Positions 11,354-36,131 of a stretch of DNA of 64,000 nucleotides are shown piece after piece. The position numbers were made by a program, and so were the translations under genes. The notes under the pieces were generated by a model. The model was given only the letters and a program-made list of their open reading frames with translations. It was not told the origin of the DNA and searched no databases. Position 1 is the first letter of the stretch; every line of letters starts with the position of its first letter. This DNA is from Myxococcus sp. RHSTA-1-4 (lineage in GTDB: Bacteria > Myxococcota > Myxococcia > Myxococcales > Myxococcaceae), in the NCBI RefSeq assembly GCF_020037125.1, contig NZ_JAIQDG010000024.1, forward strand, positions 1-64,000, read 5' to 3'.

Positions 11354-13534
11354 CTATAAGGACTCGCGGAAGTGCCGAATCACCCGCTCCCACATGCGCT
11401 CGCTGACGAGCGGGTCGGAGACCCCGTGCCCGGAGCCCGCGAGCAGCAGCAACTCATGCGGCCGGCCCGCGCGGAAGAGCGCGTCCGACAGCTTCAGCGT
11501 GTGGGAGAAGTGCACGTTGTCGTCGGCGGTGCCATGGATGAGCAATAGTTTCGCGAGGGGCTTGTCCTCCTTCGCGTAGGTGAGCAGCGAGTTCCGCTCA
11601 TACACCTCCGGCTTTTCCTGGAGCAGGCCCAGGTGACGCTCGGGGACGTGGCTGGAGTAGTCCCGCCAGTCCGCCACCGAGGACACGGCCGCCGCGGCCT
11701 TGAAGACGTCCGGCCGCACCATGGCGGCCATCGCGCTGAGGTAGCCGCCGTGGCTTGCGCCGGTGATGCCCACGCGCTGGAGGTCCACCTCGGGCAGCTC
11801 CGCGGCGAGCGCCCGCAGCGCGGCCACCTGGTCCTCCAGCGTCTGGCCCCAGAAGTCGTGTTTCTGGGTGCGCTGCCACGCCCGGCCGCGCAGGGGCGTG
11901 CCGCGCCCGTCGATGGTCACCACCAGGAAGCCCTGGTCCGCAATCCATTGCAGCCTCAGGTGATAGGCCATGCTCTGGAAGACGGTGGTGGTGAAGGAGC
12001 CTCCGTACACCTCGACGATGACGGGCAGCTTCACGCCCGGCTTGAAGTCGCGCGGGCGGACGACGGACACCCAGAAGCGCTCCTGGCCCACCTGACGCAC
12101 CTCGAACCGGGGCTGTAGGGGAGGCTCCACCGCCACGGAGGGCAGCACGCCCATGCGCGTGCCATCCGCCCTCAGCACGTGGGCCCGGGGCATGCTCGTG
12201 GGCCCCTCGGAGGACACCACCATCAGGCCCCCCGCCCTGCTCACGTTGGCCAGCTCCATCGCCGGGCCGCCCGCGGTGACGCGCGTGGGAGGACCGCCCT
12301 TCACCACGCGCCACAGGTAGCGCTCCGGTGGAACGGGGCCGCCCAGGAAGTAGAGCGTGTCCTGCTCGGGCAGGTAGCGCGCCAGGTCCCAGAAGCCGGC
12401 GCCCGGCTTCACCAGCGAGCGCGCGAGCGAGCCGTCCGCGTTGCGCAGCTCCACCTCGGAAGCGCCGTTGCGCTCCGTTTCCCAGAGAAAGCCGCTGCCG
12501 TCCGGGAGCCACTCCGGGAAGGACGGGTGCGGGTTGAGCCACGCGTCGTCCTTCTCCGTGAGCAGGACGCGCGTCTTCCCCGTCCTCGCGTCCACCGCGA
12601 GCAGCACCTCCTCCTGCTGGCGCTGGTCCTGCACCCGCAGCGTCAGCGGGCTCTTGTCGGACCACGTCACCCTGGACAGGTGCGGGTACTTCGCCGAATC
12701 CCAGTCCACCCACGTCGTCCTGCCGCCCGTCACGGGGATGATGCCCAGCCGCAGCTTCGCGTGCGGCGTGCCGGGGCGTGGGTAGGGGAACGCGTCGGCG
12801 CCGCGCTCGGGGTGCATGACGTCCGCGACGGACAGCGTCTCCACGCCGGAGGTATCCACCTCGACGTACGCGAGCGACTTCCCGTCCGGGCTCCACCAGT
12901 ACCCCGTGAAGCGGGCCAGCTCCTCCATGGCGAAGTAGTCGGCCAGGCCATGGGTCCTCTGCCGGGTGCCGCCCCGGGTGAGGCGGTGCTCGGTCTGGGT
13001 GGCCAGGTCCAGGCGATAGAGGTCGTGCTCACGGACGTACGCCAGGTGCCTGCCGTCCGGAGACAGGCGCGGGCTGATGGCGCCGGGGCCCGCCTTCAGC
13101 TCCGTCACCTTTCCGGTGGCGCGCTCCACCACGTACAGCGAGCCGGCCATGGACACGAAGAGCTTCGTGCCATCCGCCATCAGCTCGTATGAGGAGATGC
13201 CCGCGGCCTTCATGCGCTCGCGCCGGGCCTTCTGCTCCGGGGTGGAGGGCTCGCCCGCGCCCTTCAGCAGTTTCTCCGGGGTGAGCACCTCGCGCGTCTC
13301 GCCCGTCGCCACGTCGAAGGCGAAGAGCGTCCGGGCGCGGGACGGGGGCTGCGCGCGGAGGAAGTAGACCGTCCGCTCGTCGGGGGTGATGCGCGTCATC
13401 ATGGGACGCCCGTTGTTGAAGCGGTGCGTCTCCGCGTACTGCTGGAAGAAGGACGGCGGCGCGGGAGGTGGGGACTTCGGCTGCGCCAGGACGGGAGCGC
13501 TCAGCAGGGCGAGCGCCAGGAGGAGGCTGCGCAT
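11354..13534 (-). CDS. Dipeptidyl peptidase IV (S9B prolyl oligopeptidase family)
   Basis: This encodes 726 residues. A signal peptide (residues 1-17, LLLALALLSAPVLAQ) is followed by the eight-bladed propeller DPPIV N-terminal domain, which contains an acidic EE pair (YFAMEELARFTGYWWSPDGK) like that which grips the substrate N-terminus in this family. A C-terminal alpha/beta hydrolase follows. The catalytic triad is visible as Ser in GASHGG, Asp in HGTADDNVHF and His in GSGHGVSD. Exported DPPIV enzymes cut X-Pro or X-Ala dipeptides from peptide N-termini, useful for a predator feeding on protein. It is transcribed alone, 200 bp upstream of the sensor kinase on the same strand. Confidence 0.93.
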   Translation of the reverse strand: MRSLLLALALLSAPVLAQPKSPPPAPPSFFQQYAETHRFNNGRPMMTRITPDERTVYFLRAQPPSRARTLFAFDVATGETREVLTPEKLLKGAGEPSTPEQKARRERMKAAGISSYELMADGTKLFVSMAGSLYVVERATGKVTELKAGPGAISPRLSPDGRHLAYVREHDLYRLDLATQTEHRLTRGGTRQRTHGLADYFAMEELARFTGYWWSPDGKSLAYVEVDTSGVETLSVADVMHPERGADAFPYPRPGTPHAKLRLGIIPVTGGRTTWVDWDSAKYPHLSRVTWSDKSPLTLRVQDQRQQEEVLLAVDARTGKTRVLLTEKDDAWLNPHPSFPEWLPDGSGFLWETERNGASEVELRNADGSLARSLVKPGAGFWDLARYLPEQDTLYFLGGPVPPERYLWRVVKGGPPTRVTAGGPAMELANVSRAGGLMVVSSEGPTSMPRAHVLRADGTRMGVLPSVAVEPPLQPRFEVRQVGQERFWVSVVRPRDFKPGVKLPVIVEVYGGSFTTTVFQSMAYHLRLQWIADQGFLVVTIDGRGTPLRGRAWQRTQKHDFWGQTLEDQVAALRALAAELPEVDLQRVGITGASHGGYLSAMAAMVRPDVFKAAAAVSSVADWRDYSSHVPERHLGLLQEKPEVYERNSLLTYAKEDKPLAKLLLIHGTADDNVHFSHTLKLSDALFRAGRPHELLLLAGSGHGVSDPLVSERMWERVIRHFRESL

Positions 13535-25474: not shown

Positions 25475-27904
25475 TCAGGCGCGGGGGAGTTTCACCTGGA
25501 AGGTGGTGCCCGCCTCGGCGGTGGACGACACCTCGATGCGGCCCCCGTGGCCCTTCACCACCTGCTCGACGATGTAGAGCCCCAGCCCCAGGCCGCCACC
25601 GCCAGGGCCGGCCGTGGTGCCCCGGCGGAACGGGTCGAACAGGCGCGGCAGCATGTCCTCGGCAATGGGCTCGCCCGCGTTGTGCACCTCCAGCACCACC
25701 GCCTCCCCCACGTCCGACAGGTGGAAGGTGACGGGGGCGTCCGGCGGGCTGTACTGGAGCGCGTTGCCGCCCAGGTTGCTCACCACCTGCAGCAGCCGGT
25801 CCGCGTCCCACTCGCCCTCGTAGCGGCCCGGCGCCACCTGGAGCGTCAGGCTCCGCTCCGGCCACGCCGCCTCCAGCTCCTCCACGCCCTGCCGCACCAC
25901 CGCGCGCAAATCTCCGGGCACGCGCTGAATCGGGATGCCGCCGCCCAGCCGCCCGCGGGTGAAGTCCAGCAGCTCCGAAATCATGCGCTTCATCCGGTCG
26001 CTGGCGCGGGCCAGGCGGGTGACGAGCCGCCGCTCGCGCTCCGGCAGTGCCTCGCTGTGCAGCAACTGCGTGGCGGAGAGCTGGATGGCGTTGAGGGGGT
26101 TGCGCAAATCGTGGCTGACAATCGCGATGAGCCGCTCACCGAAGCGGGCCGCCTGCAGCGCCGCCTCCTGCGCGCGGCGCCGCTCGGTGATGTCCACCAT
26201 GGTGGCCACCGCCGCGACGATGGTGCCCTCCCTGTCGCGGATGGGCGCGCTGGAGACGAGCACCGTCACGCGCTGGCCGTCCTCGCGCTCGATGAGCAGC
26301 TCCTCGCTCCGCACCTCCTCGCCCTGCCGGAGGCTGCGGAACAGCGGCAGCTCCCCGGGCTCGTACCGCCGCCCGTCCGGGTGCAGCACCGTGTAGGGCG
26401 CCCGCGCGAAGTCCTCCACCAGGGTGGACGGGGCGAAGGGCCGGCCGGTGATGGCCTCCACGTTCCGGCTGGCCATCAGCAGCCGGCCACTGGGAGCCTC
26501 CGCGATGAAGACGCCCGCGGGCATCTGGTCCAGCACCGACGCCAGCCGCGCCCGCTCCGCCTCGATGGCCGCCAGCAGCCGCTGCCGGTCCGTCTCCACC
26601 GCGCGGCGCTGGGTGATGTCCAGCACGGTGGCCACCCGCTGCACCACCCGCCCGGACGCGTCGCGGAAGGACGTCACGTGCGAGAAGGCGGGGAAGCGGC
26701 TGCCGTCCTTGCGGATGTGGAGCGACTCGTATTCGTGGGAGGACTTGGAGTGCGCCGCCGACACGTGCCGGTGCAGCACGCCGCGCGCCTCGGGCGCGAA
26801 GGTGTCCTCCAGCGGCCGGCCCCTCAGCTCCTCCGGCGTGTACCCGTGCATGCGCGCGAAGGCGGGGTTGACGTCGCGCAGGGTGTTGTCCTCCGCGCTC
26901 ACCACCACCACGCCCACGCCCAGCCGTGTGAAGACCTCCTCCCAGCGCCGCAGGCCGGCCTCGCTCTCGCGCAGGCGGGCCAGGGAGGCCTCCGCCTCGG
27001 CGCGCGCCGCCCGCTCGCGGGCATGCGCCTGCGCCTGCGCGAGCAGCGCGGTGGCGCGCGCCGCCATGGCGCGGAACAGCAGCAGGTCCGCCTCGGACAG
27101 TTCGCTGCTGGCGCGGCTGCCCATCAGCGCCACCCCCAGCACCTCGCTGTCCAGCACCAGCGGCACGCCGTACAGCGCGCGCAGGCCCGCCTCGCGGAGG
27201 ACTGGCTCACCCACCCGCGCGTCGCTGCCCGCCTCATGCACGAGCAGCGGCTGGCGCGTGGCGGCGATGGTGCCGACGAAGCCCTCCCCCTCGGGCACAC
27301 GGGCCCCGGCCTTCAGCCCCTCCCCCACCACGCTCGCCACGCGCAGGGAGTCCCCGTCCTTCAGCAGCACCCCGGCCATGTCCACCGCGGCCACCGTCTC
27401 GCGCAGCACCTGGAGGAGGCGCGGGAGGAAGCCGGCCACGTCGTCGCTGCCCAGGGCCGCGGTGCTGATGCGGTCCAGCGCCTGCAGGGTGCGCTCGCGC
27501 GCGAGTGTGTAGCGGCTGACGGACGCCGCCACGGCCTCGTCCATGGCCTCGTGGAAGACGCGCTCCTCCTCCGGATACGGCGTGGCCCCGCCCCGGGCGG
27601 CCCACAGCCGCAGCACGCAGCCACGCAGCAGCCGGTACTCCGTCACCACCTGGTGGAGGTTGAAGCCCTCCCCCAGCCGCTCGAGGGCGTGCAGGTCCGG
27701 AATGGCGCCTGGCCCGGAGGCCACACCCGCCTGGGGCCGCTGGCGAATCCGCGACGCCACCCCTTCCAGCAGCCGGGGCAGGCCGTCATGCAGCGCGGGC
27801 CGGGACAGGGCCTGGGCGGCGGGGATGGCACGCACCTCCGCCTCCCACGCCTCCATGATGGCGTCGCGGTGCTGGAGGAGGAAGTCTGCCAGGGGGAGGG
27901 GCAC
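25475..27904 (-). CDS. Multi-domain sensor histidine kinase (RsbR-like N-terminus, GAF, PAS, PAS)
   Basis: This encodes 809 residues from GTG 27904; a TTG at 27940 is also in frame and neither has a clear ribosome site. The N-terminal 150 residues are helical and resemble the RsbR/RsbT-type sensor region (FLLQHRDAIMEAWEAEVRAI, VVTEYRLLRGCVLRLWA). A GAF domain follows (about 160-310), then two PAS/PAC modules, each closing with a DIT-[EQ]-R motif, then HisKA with SHDLRNPL (His598), N-box NLGGNALQYS and GLGLGLYIVEQV. It is soluble. The upstream response regulator gene stops 64 bp before it on the same strand, so the two are probably co-transcribed partners. Confidence 0.9.
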   Translation of the reverse strand: MPLPLADFLLQHRDAIMEAWEAEVRAIPAAQALSRPALHDGLPRLLEGVASRIRQRPQAGVASGPGAIPDLHALERLGEGFNLHQVVTEYRLLRGCVLRLWAARGGATPYPEEERVFHEAMDEAVAASVSRYTLARERTLQALDRISTAALGSDDVAGFLPRLLQVLRETVAAVDMAGVLLKDGDSLRVASVVGEGLKAGARVPEGEGFVGTIAATRQPLLVHEAGSDARVGEPVLREAGLRALYGVPLVLDSEVLGVALMGSRASSELSEADLLLFRAMAARATALLAQAQAHARERAARAEAEASLARLRESEAGLRRWEEVFTRLGVGVVVVSAEDNTLRDVNPAFARMHGYTPEELRGRPLEDTFAPEARGVLHRHVSAAHSKSSHEYESLHIRKDGSRFPAFSHVTSFRDASGRVVQRVATVLDITQRRAVETDRQRLLAAIEAERARLASVLDQMPAGVFIAEAPSGRLLMASRNVEAITGRPFAPSTLVEDFARAPYTVLHPDGRRYEPGELPLFRSLRQGEEVRSEELLIEREDGQRVTVLVSSAPIRDREGTIVAAVATMVDITERRRAQEAALQAARFGERLIAIVSHDLRNPLNAIQLSATQLLHSEALPERERRLVTRLARASDRMKRMISELLDFTRGRLGGGIPIQRVPGDLRAVVRQGVEELEAAWPERSLTLQVAPGRYEGEWDADRLLQVVSNLGGNALQYSPPDAPVTFHLSDVGEAVVLEVHNAGEPIAEDMLPRLFDPFRRGTTAGPGGGGLGLGLYIVEQVVKGHGGRIEVSSTAEAGTTFQVKLPRA

Positions 27905-27967
27905 GGCGAGCCATGTAAGGCCCCGGCCCCGGAGGGACAACCGCGAAACACGCGGAGTGCCGTGCAG

Positions 27968-28889: not shown

Positions 28890-31745
28890 TCACGGCACGG
28901 CCACGTGCCGCACCGTGCCCCGTTCCAAATCCAGCGCCAGCAACCGGCCGCGCGAGTCGAAGGCCAGCAGCGCGGTGGCGAAGAGGCGCACGCGCGGGAC
29001 GTCCGTGCCCTCGAAGACGAGCAGGGCCCGCTCGGTGCCACGAGCGTCCACCAGGTGGAGTTGCCAGTGGCCCGAGCAGCGCATCACGTCCACGCGCCAG
29101 TGCTCGGCGAGGACGAAGACCTCGCATCCCGGACGGACGGACTCAGGAAACTGCGGCGAGCGGGTGCCCGCGGGCTGCAGCCAGAGGAGCTGGACCTCGT
29201 GCTCCGCCGTGGGAGCGGGCTCGGCGAGGAACCGAGACGAGGCAACGTCCAGGGGGAGGACGGCCACGGGGACGGCCACGAGGGCTGTCACCTCGCCGTC
29301 GCTGGTCAGCGAGACGGTCAGGAGCGTTGCCGGCTGGGTGTTCACCGGAAGCGGCAGCTCGCCGCGGGCGCGCAGCGTGGGGCCCTGGGCCAGGTCGTAG
29401 GTCCACCGCTCCAGGCTCGACGGGCCCGAGACGAGGAAGCTCAGCCGCGCGGCATCCACGGCCAGGGACAACACGCGGCCCGGCAGGTCCGGCACCCGCC
29501 AGAGGGCACGCAGGCCGGCGGAGAAGGCGTCCACCATCATCACCGTGTGCCCGGAAGAGACGAACCAGGTGTTGCCGTCGTAGGTGGGGGCCCAGGCCTC
29601 CAGCCGCGCGTCGCACCATGGGACGGCCCTGCGCGCCACGAGGTCCAGGCGCGACAGGCGCCGCACCTCGCCGCGCGGCGCGAGCGCCAGCGCCCGGTCC
29701 CCGTGCACGGAGGGCACCAGCGAGAAGGCCGGCACGTCGAAGTGCGCGACCGTCCGGCCGTCCGCGCGCACCAGCCGCGCGCCCGCCTCGCCCAGCGCGA
29801 GCAACAGCCGGCCATCCGGCAGCGCCACCGCATCGTGGACGGGAAAGGCCCCCGCGTCCGAGGCGCGAACCGTGACGTTGATGCGCGGCCGGGACACGTC
29901 GCTGCTCCAGGTGACGGTGGAGCGCTCGGACAGCGGAGGCAGGTCCGCGCGGAGCGTGCCGTCGGGGGCGTCGCGCAGCAGGCGCGTGACGAAGTCGGAC
30001 GCGAAGCGGGCGTGGCCGGCCGCCCTGTCCCTGAGCAGCGCGCGCACCGTGGGCACCACGAGCGCGGTGCGGCCCGGCGAGGGGGACTCGCCCGACAGGG
30101 TGAGCGCGAAGGCGAAGCGCTCGGGAGCGCGCTCCGCGGTGTCGTCTTCGAGCAACTCCCGCACGCGCTCCGCCGCGGTCTCCAGTCCATCGGGGAACGC
30201 GGTGGCCCACAGCGCGAGCAGCCGTGCGCCGGAGGCGCCACCGCACTCCACGCCCCGCTCCACCCATTCGCGGGCCAGGGCCCGGGCGTCGGTGATGGGC
30301 CAGAGGGTCTGGACCGCGTGGGCCCAGTCACCGGCCTCGGCGAGCGTCTCCGCCCAGAGCAGCCTCAGGACGCGGGCCTCCTCGGGGTGCGTGCGAGACA
30401 GGCGCAGCACCGCATCCGCGAAAGCGCCGCTGCGCCGGGCGATGGCCGTGGCGCGCGCCACGTCCTTCGCGAGGAACCACTGGCGCACCACCAGCCCGGG
30501 GGGCAGGTTGCGTCCCTCGGCCAGCTCCGCCGCGAGCCGGAAGCGCCCGTGCCTCTCGAGGAAGGAGACGGCCTCCTCGTGCGCACCCAGCAGCTCGGCG
30601 AGGATGAAGGCCGCCTCATCGATGCGGCCCTCGCGCTCGAAGCGGCGGAAGGCCTCGCGGTAGCGCTCCTTGAGGGCGGCGAACAGCTCCTGGCCGCCGG
30701 CGAACACGGAGGCGGCGCCGTGCTGCCCCGTCTGGATGGTGAGCTTCTCGCGCGGACCGGGCAGGCCCAGCGCCACGCGCGTGTTCTCGTCCAGGCCGCT
30801 GCCCAGGGGGATGGCGTAGCGCAGCGCCTCCTGGAGGTTGCCCTCCTCGAACATCTCGAAGAGGCGGCGCACGTACTCCGCCTTGCGCCGGCCCAGCATC
30901 TGGCCGAGCGGCGTGTTCAGGAGCATCCACTCGGAGAGGCGCGACAGCAGGCTCGGGCCGGAGGGCTCCGCGCGAGTCCCGGGAGGTGCCTCGCCGGAGC
31001 CACCGCGGGCACTGGCCGTGGCGCCTTCGTGCGGCGTGCCGGAGCGCGCGAAGAAGGACGCCAGCCACCGGCGCAGCCGCGAAGGCGGACGGGAGGCGCT
31101 CGGCTTGCCCGGGCCGCGCGCACCGAACAGGGCCTCGCGCAGTCGCGCGAGCAGCCCCGGACGACGGGCAGCCATTGCCTTTTCCGGCGGTGCTCGTCCC
31201 TGCATTCGCGCCAGCACCCCCTGCGCCTCGGGCGCGAGCGTGGGCACGGAGGGACCGAAGAAGGCGCGCGTGGGTGGAGGCAGAGGCTCCAGCGTGGGCA
31301 CGGGCGGCGGTGGCGCGCCCAGGCCGCGCGCGGGCAGCGGCACCCACTCGGACACGTCGAGCCACTCCGACAGGTCCACCGCGGGCGCACCGGCCAGCGG
31401 GTACGCGCGCGCGACACCCGCGCGCACCAGCACCACCGAGCCCTCGCGGAGTGCCAGCTGCTCGCGCTCGCCAGCGGACAACGGCGCGGAGGACAGGACG
31501 CCCTGCTCCAGCGTGAGCGGCAGGCCCGGAGCGGAATCGCTGGCGACGGCTCGTGACTGGGGCAGGCGCAGCAGGTAGCCGCCAGCCACGAGGTGAACGG
31601 AGGCCGCGGGCGTCCACGCGGCGAGCACACGCCGGCGCGCCTCGCCCTCGCCGAGCAGCATGGGGTCGAACCAGAGGGCCGCCGCGCGCACCGTGCCTCG
31701 GTGCAGGTGACGGCGGGGCCGAAGGAGGGAGGCCGTGCCGCTCAT
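28890..31745 (-). CDS. bpX6-like protein with C-terminal beta-propeller (ternary conflict system)
   Basis: This encodes 951 residues; the ATG overlaps the previous stop as ATGA. The N-terminal 120 residues (RGTVRAAALWFDPMLLGEG, HLVAGGYLLRLP, LREGSVVLVRAGVARAYPLA) fit the bpX6 type of adaptor domain. A Pro/Arg-rich linker (about 145-270) follows, then a helical TPR/ARM-like stretch (about 300-560). The last 350 residues are propeller blades (VALPDGRLLLALGEAGARLV, DGNTWFVSSGHTVMMVD, LLAFDSRGRLLALDL). There is no signal peptide or catalytic motif. In MoxR-vWA-beta-propeller systems such proteins are thought to recognise a target while MoxR remodels the complex. The family name is from memory of the domain class and should be verified. 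Confidence 0.7.
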   Translation of the reverse strand: MSGTASLLRPRRHLHRGTVRAAALWFDPMLLGEGEARRRVLAAWTPAASVHLVAGGYLLRLPQSRAVASDSAPGLPLTLEQGVLSSAPLSAGEREQLALREGSVVLVRAGVARAYPLAGAPAVDLSEWLDVSEWVPLPARGLGAPPPPVPTLEPLPPPTRAFFGPSVPTLAPEAQGVLARMQGRAPPEKAMAARRPGLLARLREALFGARGPGKPSASRPPSRLRRWLASFFARSGTPHEGATASARGGSGEAPPGTRAEPSGPSLLSRLSEWMLLNTPLGQMLGRRKAEYVRRLFEMFEEGNLQEALRYAIPLGSGLDENTRVALGLPGPREKLTIQTGQHGAASVFAGGQELFAALKERYREAFRRFEREGRIDEAAFILAELLGAHEEAVSFLERHGRFRLAAELAEGRNLPPGLVVRQWFLAKDVARATAIARRSGAFADAVLRLSRTHPEEARVLRLLWAETLAEAGDWAHAVQTLWPITDARALAREWVERGVECGGASGARLLALWATAFPDGLETAAERVRELLEDDTAERAPERFAFALTLSGESPSPGRTALVVPTVRALLRDRAAGHARFASDFVTRLLRDAPDGTLRADLPPLSERSTVTWSSDVSRPRINVTVRASDAGAFPVHDAVALPDGRLLLALGEAGARLVRADGRTVAHFDVPAFSLVPSVHGDRALALAPRGEVRRLSRLDLVARRAVPWCDARLEAWAPTYDGNTWFVSSGHTVMMVDAFSAGLRALWRVPDLPGRVLSLAVDAARLSFLVSGPSSLERWTYDLAQGPTLRARGELPLPVNTQPATLLTVSLTSDGEVTALVAVPVAVLPLDVASSRFLAEPAPTAEHEVQLLWLQPAGTRSPQFPESVRPGCEVFVLAEHWRVDVMRCSGHWQLHLVDARGTERALLVFEGTDVPRVRLFATALLAFDSRGRLLALDLERGTVRHVAVP

Positions 31746-33580
31746 CCGCCAGCTCCCGGCAGCGCCTGGTACAGGATTCCGCCCTCGCGCAGGTTGCTCA
31801 ACACCAGCCCGCCTCCCTTCAGCATCCACCCGAGCACCGGAACGGCATGGCTGGCCTCCGCGTACAGCACGTCCTCCCAGGCCACCATCACCTTGTAACG
31901 GCCCTGGGGGCTGAACAGCCAGAAGGTGCGCCGGTCCTCGTCGATGGCCAGCAGCCCGGGGTCGGCCGGTGCCTCGCGGCAGATGCCCGGGCCGACCACA
32001 CGCATTCCCGCGGGAAGGTGCACCAACTCCGAGCGCTCCCCGAGGAACAGGCGCCACACGCCCGGCTCGTGACGTACCGCGAGCAAGCCTGCTTCCTTGT
32101 GTCCCCTGCCGCCTCCGTCGCCGAAGAACGCGCGGTCTCCGTCCACGCCGAGCGGCAGGCTGCGCACGCAGCCCGGCTCCACGATGCCCAGCCACGCGCC
32201 CGAGGACTGAGAACCCACCTCCACGGACGTGGAGCGAGTCACGAAGGTCACCTTGCGGTTCACCTCCGCCGCGGCAAGGACTCCCCTCGCCACGCGCGAG
32301 ACCTGGACGTGCCGCGTGCGCGGCTCCTCCTCGACGAGGAAGAGGCTCTCCCCCTGGTCGTCCAGCAGCAGGCGCTCATTGCCGGATGCGTCCAGGTAGC
32401 TCAACAGCCGGCCCGGCGGGTCGTGCATGGACACTGATGGTTGTGCACTGTCGCCATCGCGAGCCGCGAAGGCCTGCTCGTCAGACCTGCCAGAAGCATT
32501 CCCCCGGAGCTTGCCGTGGAGCACGAACCCGCCGTCCTTCTGCCGCTGCGTGAGGACGATGAGGCCTCCGTTGTGGCGCCAGCCCGCGCCTATCAGCGTC
32601 TGCCCCGCGGGAGGCGTCACGCGCCGGGTCTTGGGCACGGTGGCGCGCACCGAGTGCGGCAGGGCCATGGCCCCCACGCTGCCGTCCTCCCGGTGGAACA
32701 TCAGCCGGCGGCCATCCGCGGAGAAGGTGAACGAGCGCAGGAGGGGCTGCGGCGGCTGGGAGAGCCGCACGGCCGGCGCGGCGCGGGTCTGCTGGAACGG
32801 GTCTCTCAGCAGGCGCACGCAGGCCTCCGGCGGCGGCAGGTCCAGCGTCACGGAGCGCGCGGCACGGGAGGCGGGCCGCACCTGCACCGTGAGCTGCCGG
32901 GCGCTGGTGGCGAGCACCTCGGCCACCTCGGCACGGGACAGGCCCGTGGCGCCGGGCAGCCGGGACAGGCGCGCATCGCCCACGAGCCATGCGTCCTCCG
33001 GGGCCGCGTCCAGGGACAGCGCGCTTCGCCACGCGGCGAGCTGTGCATCCGTGGCGGGCCGCAGGTCGCGAGCGGCGAGCCACGTACCGACGGTGCCGGG
33101 CGTCACCTCGGAGAAGGCGCCCTTGCCGGGGTCGGCCTGGAGCACGCCCCACGAGAAGGCGGCGCCCGCGGCCTCGGCACGGCGGGACAGGACGACGAGG
33201 AGCGCGAGGTGGGCGATGCGAGGCGCCCCGAGCTGGTCCGGCCCCGCGTCCAACAGCGCCACGGTGCGGCGAGAGCCCCGCGGCTGGCGGAAGGCGGGCT
33301 TGAGGAAGGACAGCTCGCCGAAGGCGGCGCGGCGCACCAGCTCGTCGGGAGACTCCAGCGCCCACAGCCACTCGCTGACGAGCAGCCGGTCGAAGGTGCC
33401 CCTGCGGGTGAGGCCGTCATAGCCCTGGGGCTCGCCACCATCGGCCTCGCCTCGAGGACGCAACGAGCCGAGCGCCGCGGACAGCCGCGCCACGTACGGG
33501 CCCAGGTGCAGGGCCAGGTCCTCGGGGAAGAGCGAGAGCTGCGGCGCCCAGGGCCGCAGCGCGGGAGGCAGCGCGCTCAC
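31742..33580 (-). CDS. Degenerate vWA domain plus beta-propeller protein (ternary conflict system)
   Basis: This encodes 612 residues from GTG 33580, with SD GGAGGTGA four bases upstream. Residues 105-260 look like a vWA Rossmann-type domain: strand TVALLDAGPDQLG, helix HLALLVVLSRRA, strand AFSWGVLQAD. The MIDAS DxSxS motif reads D111-A-G-P-D, so metal binding is probably lost. Residues from about 270 form propeller blades (RSFTFSADGRRLMFHREDGS, GLIVLTQRQKDGG, DASGNERLLLDDQGESLFLV). vWA proteins are the usual clients of MoxR ATPases, and the moxR gene heads this operon. The start overlaps the stop of the small upstream frame and the stop overlaps the bpX6-like gene. Confidence 0.7.
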   Translation of the reverse strand: MSALPPALRPWAPQLSLFPEDLALHLGPYVARLSAALGSLRPRGEADGGEPQGYDGLTRRGTFDRLLVSEWLWALESPDELVRRAAFGELSFLKPAFRQPRGSRRTVALLDAGPDQLGAPRIAHLALLVVLSRRAEAAGAAFSWGVLQADPGKGAFSEVTPGTVGTWLAARDLRPATDAQLAAWRSALSLDAAPEDAWLVGDARLSRLPGATGLSRAEVAEVLATSARQLTVQVRPASRAARSVTLDLPPPEACVRLLRDPFQQTRAAPAVRLSQPPQPLLRSFTFSADGRRLMFHREDGSVGAMALPHSVRATVPKTRRVTPPAGQTLIGAGWRHNGGLIVLTQRQKDGGFVLHGKLRGNASGRSDEQAFAARDGDSAQPSVSMHDPPGRLLSYLDASGNERLLLDDQGESLFLVEEEPRTRHVQVSRVARGVLAAAEVNRKVTFVTRSTSVEVGSQSSGAWLGIVEPGCVRSLPLGVDGDRAFFGDGGGRGHKEAGLLAVRHEPGVWRLFLGERSELVHLPAGMRVVGPGICREAPADPGLLAIDEDRRTFWLFSPQGRYKVMVAWEDVLYAEASHAVPVLGWMLKGGGLVLSNLREGGILYQALPGAGG

Positions 33581-33688
33581 GGAGTCACCTCCGGGAGTGG
33601 CACGGGAGACAGCCCTTCGCCGAGCGCAATGCCAGACTCGCGCTGCGTTCGCGGTCTCATCGCGCTCACGGAGTCACCTCCGGGAGTG
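33572..33688. repeat. Two 28-bp direct repeats carrying stop, ribosome site and GTG start
   Basis: An identical 28-bp block occurs at 33572-33599 and 33661-33688. On the minus strand it contains GGAGGTGA, then ACTCCGTGAGCGCG, that is a strong Shine-Dalgarno followed by an overlapping stop (TGA) and start (GTG). The 61 bp between the copies are not repeated. Confidence 0.95.
33577..33669 (-). CDS. 30-codon frame between bpX5-like and vWA genes
   Basis: GTG 33669 overlaps the bpX5-like stop and is preceded by the same GGAGGTGA site as the next gene; its own stop overlaps the vWA GTG. It begins VSA like the vWA protein and ends PLPEVTP like the bpX5-like protein (SLPEVTP). It therefore looks like a by-product of a duplicated stop/ribosome-site/start module. 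It could keep ribosomes coupled along the operon. A functional peptide is unproven. Confidence 0.35.
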   Translation of the reverse strand: MSAMRPRTQRESGIALGEGLSPVPLPEVTP

Positions 33689-34148
33689 ACACAGCCGGAG
33701 GCGGCTCCAGCCAGGCGGTGAGCGTGGCGCGGTCCACCGGCCGAGCCGCCCCCACGGAGACGAGGTGGCCGGATGCGGGCAGCACGGCCACCGGCGTGCC
33801 CTCCATCCCCACGCGGGCGAGCAGCGCGCGCTCCAGCATCGACGACGCCACGTTGGGTGCCAGCGCGCAGGGCATCAGCAGCGACGGCGCGGCGGAGTCC
33901 CTGCCCAGGTACACGGCCCCATCCACCCACGGCAGCGACTCGGCGGGCCCCAGCAGCACGAGGACACCCGGGCCCGCCACGCCGCTCCACGAGGCGAGAC
34001 GCGCGTCATCCTCGGAGAGCACCCGGCGCGCGAGCGCGAGCGCAACGGGCCCCTCGCCCGCCACGGCGAGCGGCTCCAGCGGCTCGGACCGAGGCCCCCA
34101 GCGCACCGGGATTCGCGCGGCTGCAATGTCGTGGTGCTCGCTGCTCAT
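33666..34148 (-). CDS. Small bpX5-like adaptor protein (ternary conflict system)
   Basis: This encodes 160 residues; ATG 34148 lies two bases after the moxR stop. The sequence is soluble, rich in Ala, Leu and Val strands (GPGVLVLLGPAESLPWVDGAVYLG, split by turns), with no catalytic motif. The segment PVAVLPASGHLVSVGAARPV followed by LTAWLEPP fits small single-domain proteins of the bpX5 type that sit beside moxR in these operons. The order MoxR, bpX5-like, vWA/propeller, bpX6-like/propeller is the basis of the call. The domain name is inferred from size and place; sequence evidence alone is weak. Confidence 0.6.
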   Translation of the reverse strand: MSSEHHDIAAARIPVRWGPRSEPLEPLAVAGEGPVALALARRVLSEDDARLASWSGVAGPGVLVLLGPAESLPWVDGAVYLGRDSAAPSLLMPCALAPNVASSMLERALLARVGMEGTPVAVLPASGHLVSVGAARPVDRATLTAWLEPPPAVSLPEVTP

Positions 34149-34150
34149 CT

Positions 34151-35323
34151 TCAAGCCGCCACGTTCGCGTTGGCCGCGGGCGTGGCGGGCGACAGCGCCT
34201 CGGACAGCCGGACGCGCAGCGCCTTCAGGTCCTCGGGCAGGGACTCGGGCGCGAAGCCCGCGTCCATCTCCCGGGCCACGCCCTCCAGCTTCAGGCGCCA
34301 TGCGGAGAGCGCCTCGGAATCCCCATCCGCGGGCCGCTCCGAGAGCAGCACCTCTCCCGCCGTGGCGATGCGCTGCGCCCGGGCGCGAGGCCCCGCGCTG
34401 GCCTCCAGCGCCGCCGAGGCCAGGGCCGGGTTCTCCGATGCCGCGAGCAATTCGCGCAGCACGTCGCGAGCGAGCGCCTGGGCCTCCTTGGTGGGCACGG
34501 CATAGACGAGCGGCCACAGGTCCGCGGTGCCCGGCACGCGCCGGCCGGCCAGCGCCGCGGCGGAGGCGATGAGCTTCTGCACCTTCACCGCGCGGCGGTC
34601 CGACAGGCCGATGCCGGCGGCGCGCAGCGAGCGCAGCGCATGGGCCAGGTGCGGGCGGACGGCGGAGAGGTCCGCCTCGCGAGCGGCCTGGGCGAGCACG
34701 TCCAGGGACTCCAGCGAGGTGGCGCGGGCCTCGGCCTCGCTCCACAGCGAGGCGCCGCCGGCGAGCAGTTCCTCCAGCCGGGGGTCGGGCACGGGCTCGA
34801 CGAAGATGCGGGTGAGGAAGCGGTCGGCGAACGCGGCGAGCGAGTCATCCTCGGGCAGCGCGTTGGAGGCGCCCACGCAGACGCGCAGCGGGCAGCGCAT
34901 GCGCGTGTGGCCGCGCCGGAAGGTGCGCTCGTTGAGGATGCCGAGCAGCGTGTTGAGGATGGCGGTGGAGCCGAGGAAGACCTCGTCAAGGAAGGCGACC
35001 TCGGCCTCGGGCAGCATGCCGGTGGTCTCCGTCTCCACGAGTCCCTCGCGCAGCTTGCGCAGGTCCACGGGGCCGAACAGCTCGGAGGGCTCGGTGAAGC
35101 GGCCCAGGAGATACTCGAAGTAGGAGCCGCCGAGGGCGCGAGCGGTGCGGCGCACGGCCTCGCTCTTCGCGGTACCGGGAGGGCCGATGACGAGCAGGTG
35201 CTCGCCGGCCACGGCGGACAGGGCAACCAGCTCCACCATGGCCTCGCGCTCGACGAGCCCCCGCCCGGCGTCGGTGAGTGCATCGCGGACGGCGGAAGCC
35301 GCGGCTTCGAAAGTGACGGACAT
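34151..35323 (-). CDS. MoxR-family AAA+ ATPase (ternary conflict system)
   Basis: This encodes 390 residues from ATG 35323. The Walker A motif is GPPGTAKS (47-54), Walker B VAFLDE (109-114) followed by VFLGSTAILNTLLGILNER typical of MoxR/RavA, and sensor 1 is in VCVGASNALPEDD. The C-terminal lid (SDRRAVKVQKLIASAAALAG) has the sensor-2-like Arg pair. MoxR ATPases form hexamers that remodel vWA-containing partners. Here it heads an operon with a bpX5-like protein, a vWA/propeller protein and a bpX6-like/propeller protein. It is cytoplasmic. The 211-bp region before it must contain the operon promoter; it is divergent from an outer-membrane protein gene. Confidence 0.92.
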   Translation of the reverse strand: MSVTFEAAASAVRDALTDAGRGLVEREAMVELVALSAVAGEHLLVIGPPGTAKSEAVRRTARALGGSYFEYLLGRFTEPSELFGPVDLRKLREGLVETETTGMLPEAEVAFLDEVFLGSTAILNTLLGILNERTFRRGHTRMRCPLRVCVGASNALPEDDSLAAFADRFLTRIFVEPVPDPRLEELLAGGASLWSEAEARATSLESLDVLAQAAREADLSAVRPHLAHALRSLRAAGIGLSDRRAVKVQKLIASAAALAGRRVPGTADLWPLVYAVPTKEAQALARDVLRELLAASENPALASAALEASAGPRARAQRIATAGEVLLSERPADGDSEALSAWRLKLEGVAREMDAGFAPESLPEDLKALRVRLSEALSPATPAANANVAA

Positions 35324-35534: not shown

Positions 35535-36131
35535 ATGAGAACGCTGTGGAAGTCGGTGGCGCTGGCGGGCGTGTTGGGCCTGGGGACGGAGGCGGCGGCG
35601 GAGGGCTGGCACGGGTACGCCTCGCTGGGAGCGGGCATCACGCTGGACCACCTGAGCGACTTCCACGCGAAGGGGCCGGCGCTGCACGGGTACCTGGGCG
35701 TGGAATCACCGCCGGGCTTGTCGTTGGGACTGCTGGCGGAGGTCTCCGAGACGTGGGGACAGCAGCAGTTCCCGGTGGCGGCGGACCCGAACCGGCTGGA
35801 GCGGGCGCAGCTCGACTACAAGGCGGTGGGCATCGAGGCGCGGCTGCGTTTCTTCCGGGACAAGCCCATCAACCCGTGGGTGGGAGCGCGCCTGTCGAAG
35901 AGCTGGTCGAGCTCCTTCACGCCGGACGACGCGGGGAGACTCCTGCGCGAGAAGATCGACACCACGAGCATGGCCTTCCGGTTGGGCATCGATGGTTGGT
36001 TCAACTCGCGCTGGGGCCTGTCGGTGGCCACGGCCTTCCAGTTCTGCGACGTGAAATTCACCGAGGAAGCCATCAAGGAGTGCGCCGAGCCGCTGCACTC
36101 CGTCATCGCGGGCCCGGTGCTGCGGTTCTGA
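35535..36131 (+). CDS. Predicted small outer-membrane beta-barrel protein
   Basis: This encodes 198 residues, with a signal peptide of about 22 residues (VALAGVLGLGTEAAAEG) and GGAG just before the ATG. The rest is alternating strands and turns (YASLGAGITLDHLSDFH, SLGLLAEVSETWG, IEARLRFFRDKPINPWVGAR) and ends with a C-terminal aromatic strand (VIAGPVLRF), the signal for barrel assembly. It is similar in build to 8-stranded OmpA-like barrels. It lies divergent from moxR. The function is unknown; it may be a porin-like or structural protein. Confidence 0.65.
   Translation: MRTLWKSVALAGVLGLGTEAAAEGWHGYASLGAGITLDHLSDFHAKGPALHGYLGVESPPGLSLGLLAEVSETWGQQQFPVAADPNRLERAQLDYKAVGIEARLRFFRDKPINPWVGARLSKSWSSSFTPDDAGRLLREKIDTTSMAFRLGIDGWFNSRWGLSVATAFQFCDVKFTEEAIKECAEPLHSVIAGPVLRF

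Follow-up and report, generated by a model that had tools for sequence, protein, structure and literature searches.

The 64,000-nucleotide (nt) stretch of Myxococcus sp. RHSTA-1-4 analysed here (the window; positions 1 to 64,000 of contig NZ_JAIQDG010000024.1) carries, between positions 28890 and 35323, an operon that encodes a MoxR-type AAA+ ATPase, bpX5, a protein with a degenerate vWA half and a C-terminal β-propeller, and a protein with a bpX6 domain, helical repeats and a second propeller. Judged from its sequence, this operon is the MoxR–bpX5–vWA–bpX6 subtype of the MoxR-vWA-beta-propeller ternary systems, subsystem 4 of Kaur, Burroughs, Iyer and Aravind (2020; PMC7159879), for which that paper gives a conflict role as a prediction only. 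It is a further example of a predicted, functionally uncharacterized system type, and its own function is likewise a prediction. New here are the fixed MoxR–bpX5–vWA–bpX6 order, which by comparison of loci recurs beyond chance; a conserved DAGPxQLGxxR motif by which the metal-ion-dependent adhesion site (MIDAS) of the vWA domain is replaced in the aligned homologues; and propellers that appear to evolve rapidly, with signs of exchange or multiplication in some relatives. Their most likely role is target recognition within a remodelling machine driven by ATP.

An earlier note, made from the sequence of the window alone, had proposed a MoxR-vWA-beta-propeller ternary operon of four minus-strand genes, and its identification, coordinates and sizes were all borne out. 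The genes are MoxR (gene 1; 34151–35323, 390 residues), bpX5 (gene 2; 33666–34148, 160 residues), the vWA/propeller gene (gene 3; 31742–33580, 612 residues) and the bpX6 gene (gene 4; 28890–31745, 951 residues). These genes and all features within them lie on the minus strand, and all four reading frames are open. In a hidden Markov model search against Pfam, MoxR matched bpMoxR (PF20030; 281 bits, the cut-off being 27; E 4.1e-84), gene 2 matched bpX5 (PF19921; E 3.4e-23) and gene 4 matched bpX6 (PF19922; E 1.6e-38), all well over the cut-offs; three of the four proteins belong to families named after these ternary systems. The 612-residue protein had no Pfam match at E ≤ 1. The two outcomes that the note had named as counting against it did not occur: neither large protein fell into an unrelated family in the profile searches, and no housekeeping gene order without bpX partners was found in the loci compared.

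As described by Kaur et al. (PMC7159879), subsystem 4 combines a bpMoxR with a GXXXTAKS P-loop, a divergent vWA domain with a C-terminal propeller, the MIDAS aspartates being missing in a subset, and a third component made of helical repeats and a C-terminal propeller. The window operon shares all of these. Its vWA identity comes from a profile match to ivWA and the attached propeller from a predicted structure, while the third component was recognized by the bpX6 Pfam match and its C-terminal TPR-like helical repeats and propeller by the model. The membrane-spanning segment reported for the third component in the same source, where it is apparently not a defining feature, is missing from the window bpX6 protein. 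Membership in a single operon was judged from gene positions, by adjacency and shared direction in the window and in 75/75 testable loci.

The earlier note had described the genes as overlapping or nearly touching at every junction. This holds for MoxR and bpX5, which are separated by 2 nt, and for vWA and bpX6, but the bpX5 stop and the vWA start are 85 nt apart, because that junction is duplicated. Of the two junction motifs that the note had reported, the ATGA is the 4-nt vWA/bpX6 overlap and the GTGA lies within a 35-nt stretch that is present twice at bpX5/vWA (33569–33692; copies at 33569–33603 and 33658–33692, 89 nt apart and identical at 33/35 positions). From reading the sequence, a 30-codon frame starts at the first GTGA and terminates within the second (33577–33692), so translational coupling of bpX5 and vWA may persist across the duplicated junction. 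Among eight related genomes compared, six have a plain 4-nt overlap at this position (L029–L031, L034, L035 and L037), and the other two have longer gaps, of 73 nt in L032 and 258 nt in L033. In both of these gaps the junction is seemingly repeated as well.

The related loci were collected in one scan of genome contigs, from which 80 of 551 confirmed loci were kept. The gene-order comparison that the note had suggested showed the MoxR–bpX5–vWA–bpX6 order in every locus long enough to display it: the first three genes were in this order in 75/75 testable loci and all four in 71/71, some with inserts. Counted over all loci, bpX5 and vWA follow MoxR in 75/80 and bpX6 is found in 71/80, the missing ones falling at contig or locus ends; in L200, a longer stretch of sequence revealed bpX6 downstream of a vWA array. 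The presence of bpX5 in every testable locus of this subtype (75/75) adds to the description of subsystem 4. Inserts of 1.8–5 kb separate MoxR from bpX5 in seven loci, and one locus has an insert between vWA and bpX6. We considered whether the MoxR–bpX5 inserts harbour a hidden effector, and rejected this as a fixed component of the system, as their contents differ between lineages. In L125 (9311–13389) the insert contains genes for a PAAR-like toxin domain and DUF2169, both of which are found in type VI secretion clusters; in L130, from Archangium violaceum, it contains a TsiV-type immunity gene (11482–12393); in L129 it contains DUF2381, and in L126 a below-cut-off match to globin. The vWA–bpX6 insert, in L136 from Minicystis rosea, holds a PIG-L family gene (11416–12249).

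The vWA half of gene 3 (residues 1–262; 32795–33580) was identified by a profile-profile match (probability 92, E 5.7e-7) to ivWA, the Pfam vWA family of the FtsH ternary systems, using a profile built from 31 sequences. Against single ivWA sequences the same half scored 37–55, below the profile-based 92, and the ivWA profile gave only 0.1–0.5 with five other modules of the operon. None of the 76 vWA-protein homologues had a Pfam vWA match (E ≤ 0.01). The degenerate MIDAS, D-A-G-P-D, that the note had pointed out is at residues 111–115, and the former MIDAS loop, DAGPDQLG, spans residues 111–118 (33227–33250). In an alignment of 77 rows (76 homologues, among them tandem copies, plus the window), the loop is conserved at D111 (74/77), G113 (77/77), P114 (72/77), Q116 (70/77), G118 (75/77) and R121 (75/77), and the position of the second MIDAS aspartate (202) holds an aspartate in 4/77. 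The absence of MIDAS aspartates from part of the vWA domains in such systems was already noted by Kaur et al. (PMC7159879).

AlphaFold models of the two large proteins, compared with known structures, confirmed the propellers that had been predicted in both (mean predicted local distance difference test [pLDDT] scores of 91.0 and 85.8). The structure comparisons returned lists filled by propellers, and the results speak to the propeller domains only. The model of the vWA protein, made with 76 sequences, had a predicted template modelling (pTM) score of 0.63, and the relative placement of its domains is therefore uncertain. Its C-terminal propeller (residues 281–606; 31763–32740) has seven blades as counted by hand from the DSSP assignment of the model, a detail that goes beyond the description of subsystem 4. 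In VIA-align the closest structure was the lectin 5c9o (Z 12.5, root-mean-square deviation [rmsd] 5.1, 275 residues aligned), with which a WD40-type chain from the 90S particle tied at 12.5. The propeller profile also matched 7bie (nvWRAP-T) with a whole-sequence E of 1.3e-11, where no single stretch passed alone.

The bpX6 protein model (pTM 0.73) shows, in order, the bpX6 domain (residues 11–179; 31209–31715), a poorly ordered linker, helical repeats (residues 266–600 by DSSP; 29946–30950) and a WD40-like propeller (residues 622–949 by VIA-align; 28899–29882). The propeller aligned with the 90S chain 7d4i_B1 (Z 20.1, rmsd 3.5, 271 residues aligned) and with Apaf-1 (3sfz, Z 19.3). The helical repeats gave a weak TPR match (E 0.13). 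By hydropathy, a membrane segment in the linker was found in 26/66 rows overall and in 0/12 Myxococcaceae-type rows, the window included. In hhalign comparisons the vWA propeller and the bpX6 propeller scored 68.9 against each other, while no relation was found among the other bpX5, bpX6 and vWA modules (at most 0.7). The bpX5 protein has a conserved core, LPWVDGxxY, and no structural kin were found for it, the best PDB sequence match being at E 0.21.

Of the modules compared across distant loci, the propellers are the least conserved. Two homologue alignments (76 and 64 rows) were made, from which open reading frames (ORFs) beyond the length limits or running off the contig were excluded. Identities were calculated for the window and 61 loci over 1770 pairs, after 121 of 1891 pairs with less than 50% shared columns were dropped; L189 and L200 were excluded. 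Mean identity was 39.6% for the vWA half, 36.2% for bpX5, 32.7% for the bpX6 domain and 39.2% for the helical residues 352–600, which with the vWA half are among the best-conserved modules, compared to 27.3% for the bpX6 propeller and 19.9% for the vWA propeller, the lowest of all. The better conservation of the bpX6 domain (32.7%) than of the propellers (27.3 and 19.9%) is a further addition to what was described for subsystem 4. When 30 disjoint pairs were taken, identity in the vWA propeller was lower than in the vWA half, bpX5 and the helical repeats in 30/30 each, lower than in the bpX6 domain in 28 and lower than in the bpX6 propeller in 27. Within the genus, mean identity was 85.6% for MoxR, 69.8% for bpX5, 75.6% for the vWA half and 45.4% for its propeller, and in the bpX6 protein 55.6% for the bpX6 domain, 46.9% for the linker, 71.3% for the helical repeats and 54.0% for the propeller; flanking genes were at 76.5, 79.4 and 77.9%. 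Between the window and L029, the part where the vWA propeller varies most (approximately residues 360–540; 31961–32503) was 28–68% identical, against 78–100% in the vWA half, and the hypervariable blades of the bpX6 propeller (approximately residues 780–900; 29046–29408) were 42–62% identical. A check of loop faces indicated that one class of alternating loops was more variable in both propellers; because the blade register, assigned manually, is uncertain for bpX6, this result was not used.

The bpX6 genes of L032 and L034, compared over the C-terminal 789 residues of the L034 protein, are 87–99% identical in DNA over residues 301–751 (L032 numbering), fall to 64% near residue 850 and return to 88%, with a gap of only 3 nt in the divergent stretch. 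The same two loci share 94% identity in the vWA propeller part and 59% in the variable part of bpX6. From such comparisons, close relatives seem to differ by in-frame replacement of propeller segments. No donors of the divergent Myxococcus segments were found within the genus. In the genus of Massilia rubra, the vWA protein is present in 8/17 genomes and in at least two copies in 5/8 carriers; in Massilia rubra itself five consecutive genes comprise four vWA-propeller genes and one propeller alone. The vWA half was more alike than the propeller in 10/10 pairs that came from one array and had both domains. L235, L236 and L237, from three genomes of that genus, have two vWA genes per genome, whose vWA halves are 87–91% identical. 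In slot 1 the propellers of L236 and L237 are the closer pair (93% vs. 71–72%), and in slot 2 those of L235 and L237 (85% vs. 52–53%). Since L235 and L237 are also the closer pair for MoxR (96% vs. 94%) and bpX6 (91% vs. 86%), the discordance lies in slot 1. It fits an exchange of propellers, to which uneven rates are an alternative.

Turning to the genus, bpX5 was found in 20/27 genomes and bpX6 in the same 20. Two genes outside the system served as positional anchors: a β-barrel gene (35535–36131, plus strand), whose OMP_b-brl match was below the cut-off, and a histidine kinase gene (25475–27940, minus strand). The β-barrel gene adjoins the operon in 20/20 carriers, the window included, and is at the site in 7/7 non-carriers; the kinase gene is downstream in 18 carriers, and the contigs of the remaining two stop before the kinase position. 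In L083, from G019, the flanking kinase was detected only as short tblastn pieces and may be broken. Two non-carriers hold debris at the syntenic site (remnant loci L078 and L080): G024 retains only MoxR codons 1–65, and G002 retains fragments of MoxR and bpX6. In the five other non-carriers no remnant of the operon was found at E ≤ 1e-5. In a tree of two flanking genes that included, as outside carriers, two Corallococcus loci, an Archangium and a Myxococcaceae metagenome-assembled genome (MAG), starred branches force three changes between presence and absence. We read these as losses because the outside carriers share the β-barrel gene nearby and two non-carriers contain debris. We infer that the operon was lost about three times in the genus and is dispensable.

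These observations can be combined into a proposal for how the system would work. By analogy with RavA-ViaA and NorQ-NorD, the MoxR ring would drive its vWA partner with ATP. The Walker motifs that the note had reported are both present, as GPPGTAKS (Walker A, residues 47–54; 35162–35185) and FLDE (Walker B, residues 111–114; 34982–34993), and each is invariant in a six-row MoxR alignment; the former is an instance of the GXXXTAKS P-loop variant that Kaur et al. name for the propeller and FtsH ternary systems (PMC7159879). With a degenerate MIDAS, the usual metal-bridged grip on the substrate would be gone, and the propellers would therefore now grip and choose the substrate. The bpX6 protein would provide a scaffold and a second grip, and in relatives with the linker membrane segment, unlike in the window, it would be placed at the membrane. 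ATP-driven movement would then remodel or pull apart the bound complex. With less certainty, the targets could be fast-changing proteins, either foreign, from phages or competitors, or variable self markers. The note's suggestion that two propellers sense targets thus gains support from the 30/30 pairs, the replaced segments and the tandem vWA genes, but recognition itself is only inferred. Taken whole, the proposal of an ATP-driven MoxR-vWA remodeller with propellers that choose its targets seems to us evenly balanced between right and wrong, its use in conflict or kin discrimination being the less certain part. Family membership, dispensability and variability make such a use plausible. There is also a likeness to the VMAP-type ternary systems diversified by diversity-generating retroelements, where the vWA component of the MoxR system was proposed as a variable antigen sensor (PMC10907252). 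In that case a C-type-lectin domain is mutated by the retroelement, whereas here the propeller appears to vary by divergence and segment replacement; no retroelement search was made at the locus.

Several results weigh against this proposal. The operon keeps one syntenic place in the genus. A MoxR tree of the loci, made by a quick method, showed 11 phylum changes compared to a shuffled mean of 32.8 and grouped mostly by family (seven phylum-level groups and six rows without a group, one Armatimonadota locus being left off), which suggests that inheritance is largely vertical, unlike that of fast-moving defence genes. No phage match was found for bpX6, and its one plasmid match was on a 5.7-Mb Embleya replicon. 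By Pfam, none of the four window proteins has a toxin or nuclease effector domain. No model in PADLOC-DB 2.0.0 matched bpX5, bpX6 or MoxR, and the operon does not correspond to any known anti-phage system in that database. A literature search, judged largely by titles, yielded no phenotype or experiment on this subsystem; among the papers listed were predictions and a Pseudomonas syringae gene listing. In the genus the bpX6 domain (55.6%) and linker (46.9%) diverge about as much as the bpX6 propeller (54.0%), which weakens the reading that variability is confined to the propellers; the divergence of the propellers was compared with operon modules and flanking genes. Wherever it could be computed for the 14 closest pairs, the ratio of nonsynonymous to synonymous substitutions (dN/dS) stayed below 1 in all modules, which does not demonstrate positive selection. 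It ranged over 0.04–0.19 for MoxR, 0.24–0.51 for the vWA propeller and 0.38–0.80 for the bpX6 propeller (the 10 pairs that include bpX6), with the flanking kinase reaching 0.47. These values were obtained by the Nei-Gojobori method (NG86), which is rough on GC-rich codons, from pairs that overlap, four of them without bpX6; for L034 the same C-terminal 789 residues of bpX6 were used.

The widest cluster among 616 non-core ORFs from the 80 loci, named by reading as ABC transporters, occurs in 12 loci, and no Pfam family was found in more than three of the 118 nearest flanking proteins (loci L134–L200). There is therefore no visible client or effector gene alongside. The same 118 proteins gave two Phage_integrase matches, and PADLOC matches in 33 families, most of the 25 listed having a single member, from which we claim neither enrichment nor depletion. 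Within the operon, the vWA protein had a sole PADLOC match, to TRIP13, which was weak (E 2.1e-4, residues 181–263). For the defence or kin-discrimination device that the note had envisaged, which is a plausible proposal, the searches turned up neither an effector nor a PADLOC system, and neither a phage copy nor a neighbour that recurs. A mobile defence island is not supported in the genus: bpX6 had no phage match and the one plasmid match, bpX5 had no plasmid match, and the operon has its one place in the genus. Pseudomonas syringae speaks otherwise: in clade 2b-a, ravA, bpX5, '6ND4' and bpX6 lie in one region of genome plasticity, which the authors consider possibly acquired (PMC9677677). 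In Myxococcota, bpX6 was found in 63/195 genomes, as a single copy in each, and in 0/14 control genomes. Two loci have questionable titles: L131, probably mislabelled as Comamonas sp. KCTC 72670, groups with Myxococcus, and L156, titled a Klebsiella pneumoniae MAG and possibly a misnamed bin, has the operon and is near proteobacterial MAGs in the MoxR tree.

The alternative that survives best is a client-specific chaperone like RavA-ViaA, NorQ-NorD or CbbQ-CbbO, which would mature one endogenous complex encoded elsewhere, its propellers tracking a fast-evolving client such as a surface or secreted component. The known MoxR-vWA pairs are assembly or activation chaperones, according to two papers (PMC13036017, PMC7159879), and they share with the window operon a MoxR AAA+ protein and a vWA partner. 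RavA provides the only solved structures that match the window MoxR at E ≤ 1e-10 by sequence. However, this MoxR scores 147 bits in the RavA NCBIfam equivalog, against a cut-off of 681, and in profile comparisons the vWA half gave no alignment with ViaA of the same genome, nor with the vWA protein of L089. ViaA has an intact MIDAS, and to our knowledge neither RavA-ViaA nor NorQ-NorD has propellers. NorD, too, has an intact MIDAS (PMC13036017), whereas that of the window vWA is degenerate. A chaperone keeps its place as a candidate because inheritance is mostly vertical, from one resident site in the genus, and no effector, phage copies or recurrent neighbours were found; against it are the lack of a recurrent neighbour that might be the client (ABC transporters in 12/80 loci, no Pfam family in more than 3/118 flanking proteins), the three inferred losses in one genus, and the tandem vWA genes, whose different propellers suggest several targets. 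We regard it as possible, though not as the probable answer. That the propellers vary only from relaxed constraint, during slow decay of the operon in this lineage, is improbable: the three inferred losses, the debris in two genomes, the higher dN/dS of the propellers and the divergence of the bpX6 domain and linker would fit, but none of the four frames is interrupted in the window, MoxR has a low dN/dS in the same 14 pairs, the propellers fold with high confidence in the models, and in L032 and L034 one propeller is conserved while the other is not (94% vs. 59%), with DNA identity recovering past the divergent stretch, a pattern that does not resemble general decay.

The window operon is also distinct from the FtsH ternary systems (subsystem 3 of Kaur et al.), with which it shares a degenerate vWA family, by profile match, and a bpMoxR-type MoxR. 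The third component of those systems has two FtsH-type AAA+ domains, while none of the four window proteins has a Pfam match to FtsH. The ivWA of the FtsH system is found in 27/27 genomes of the genus, compared to 20/27 for bpX5. The bpMoxR model is broad, and a RavA-like and an FtsH-type MoxR of the same genome match it with 201 bits each. That genome contains, at L088, fvmX7, ivWA and a bpMoxR-type MoxR together, near a WGR/LRR protein, and, at L087, a RavA-like MoxR paired with a ViaA-like vWA protein.

Within the preferred reading, of a remodeller that selects its targets through the propellers, a more specific version would treat the propellers as exchangeable recognition cassettes: recognition would have moved away from the vWA metal site, recombination would swap propeller segments and leave the motor-facing half unchanged, and tandem genes would supply repertoires of adaptors to a single motor. 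We offer this tentatively and consider it rather unlikely in full. If true, the system would be a bacterial counterpart to innate systems that use several receptors. The prediction of MoxR-vWA-beta-propeller ternary systems dates from 2020, and concrete handles on them are now available: the DAGPxQLGxxR loop, the variable propeller segments, and a fixed four-gene unit with no obvious client or effector.

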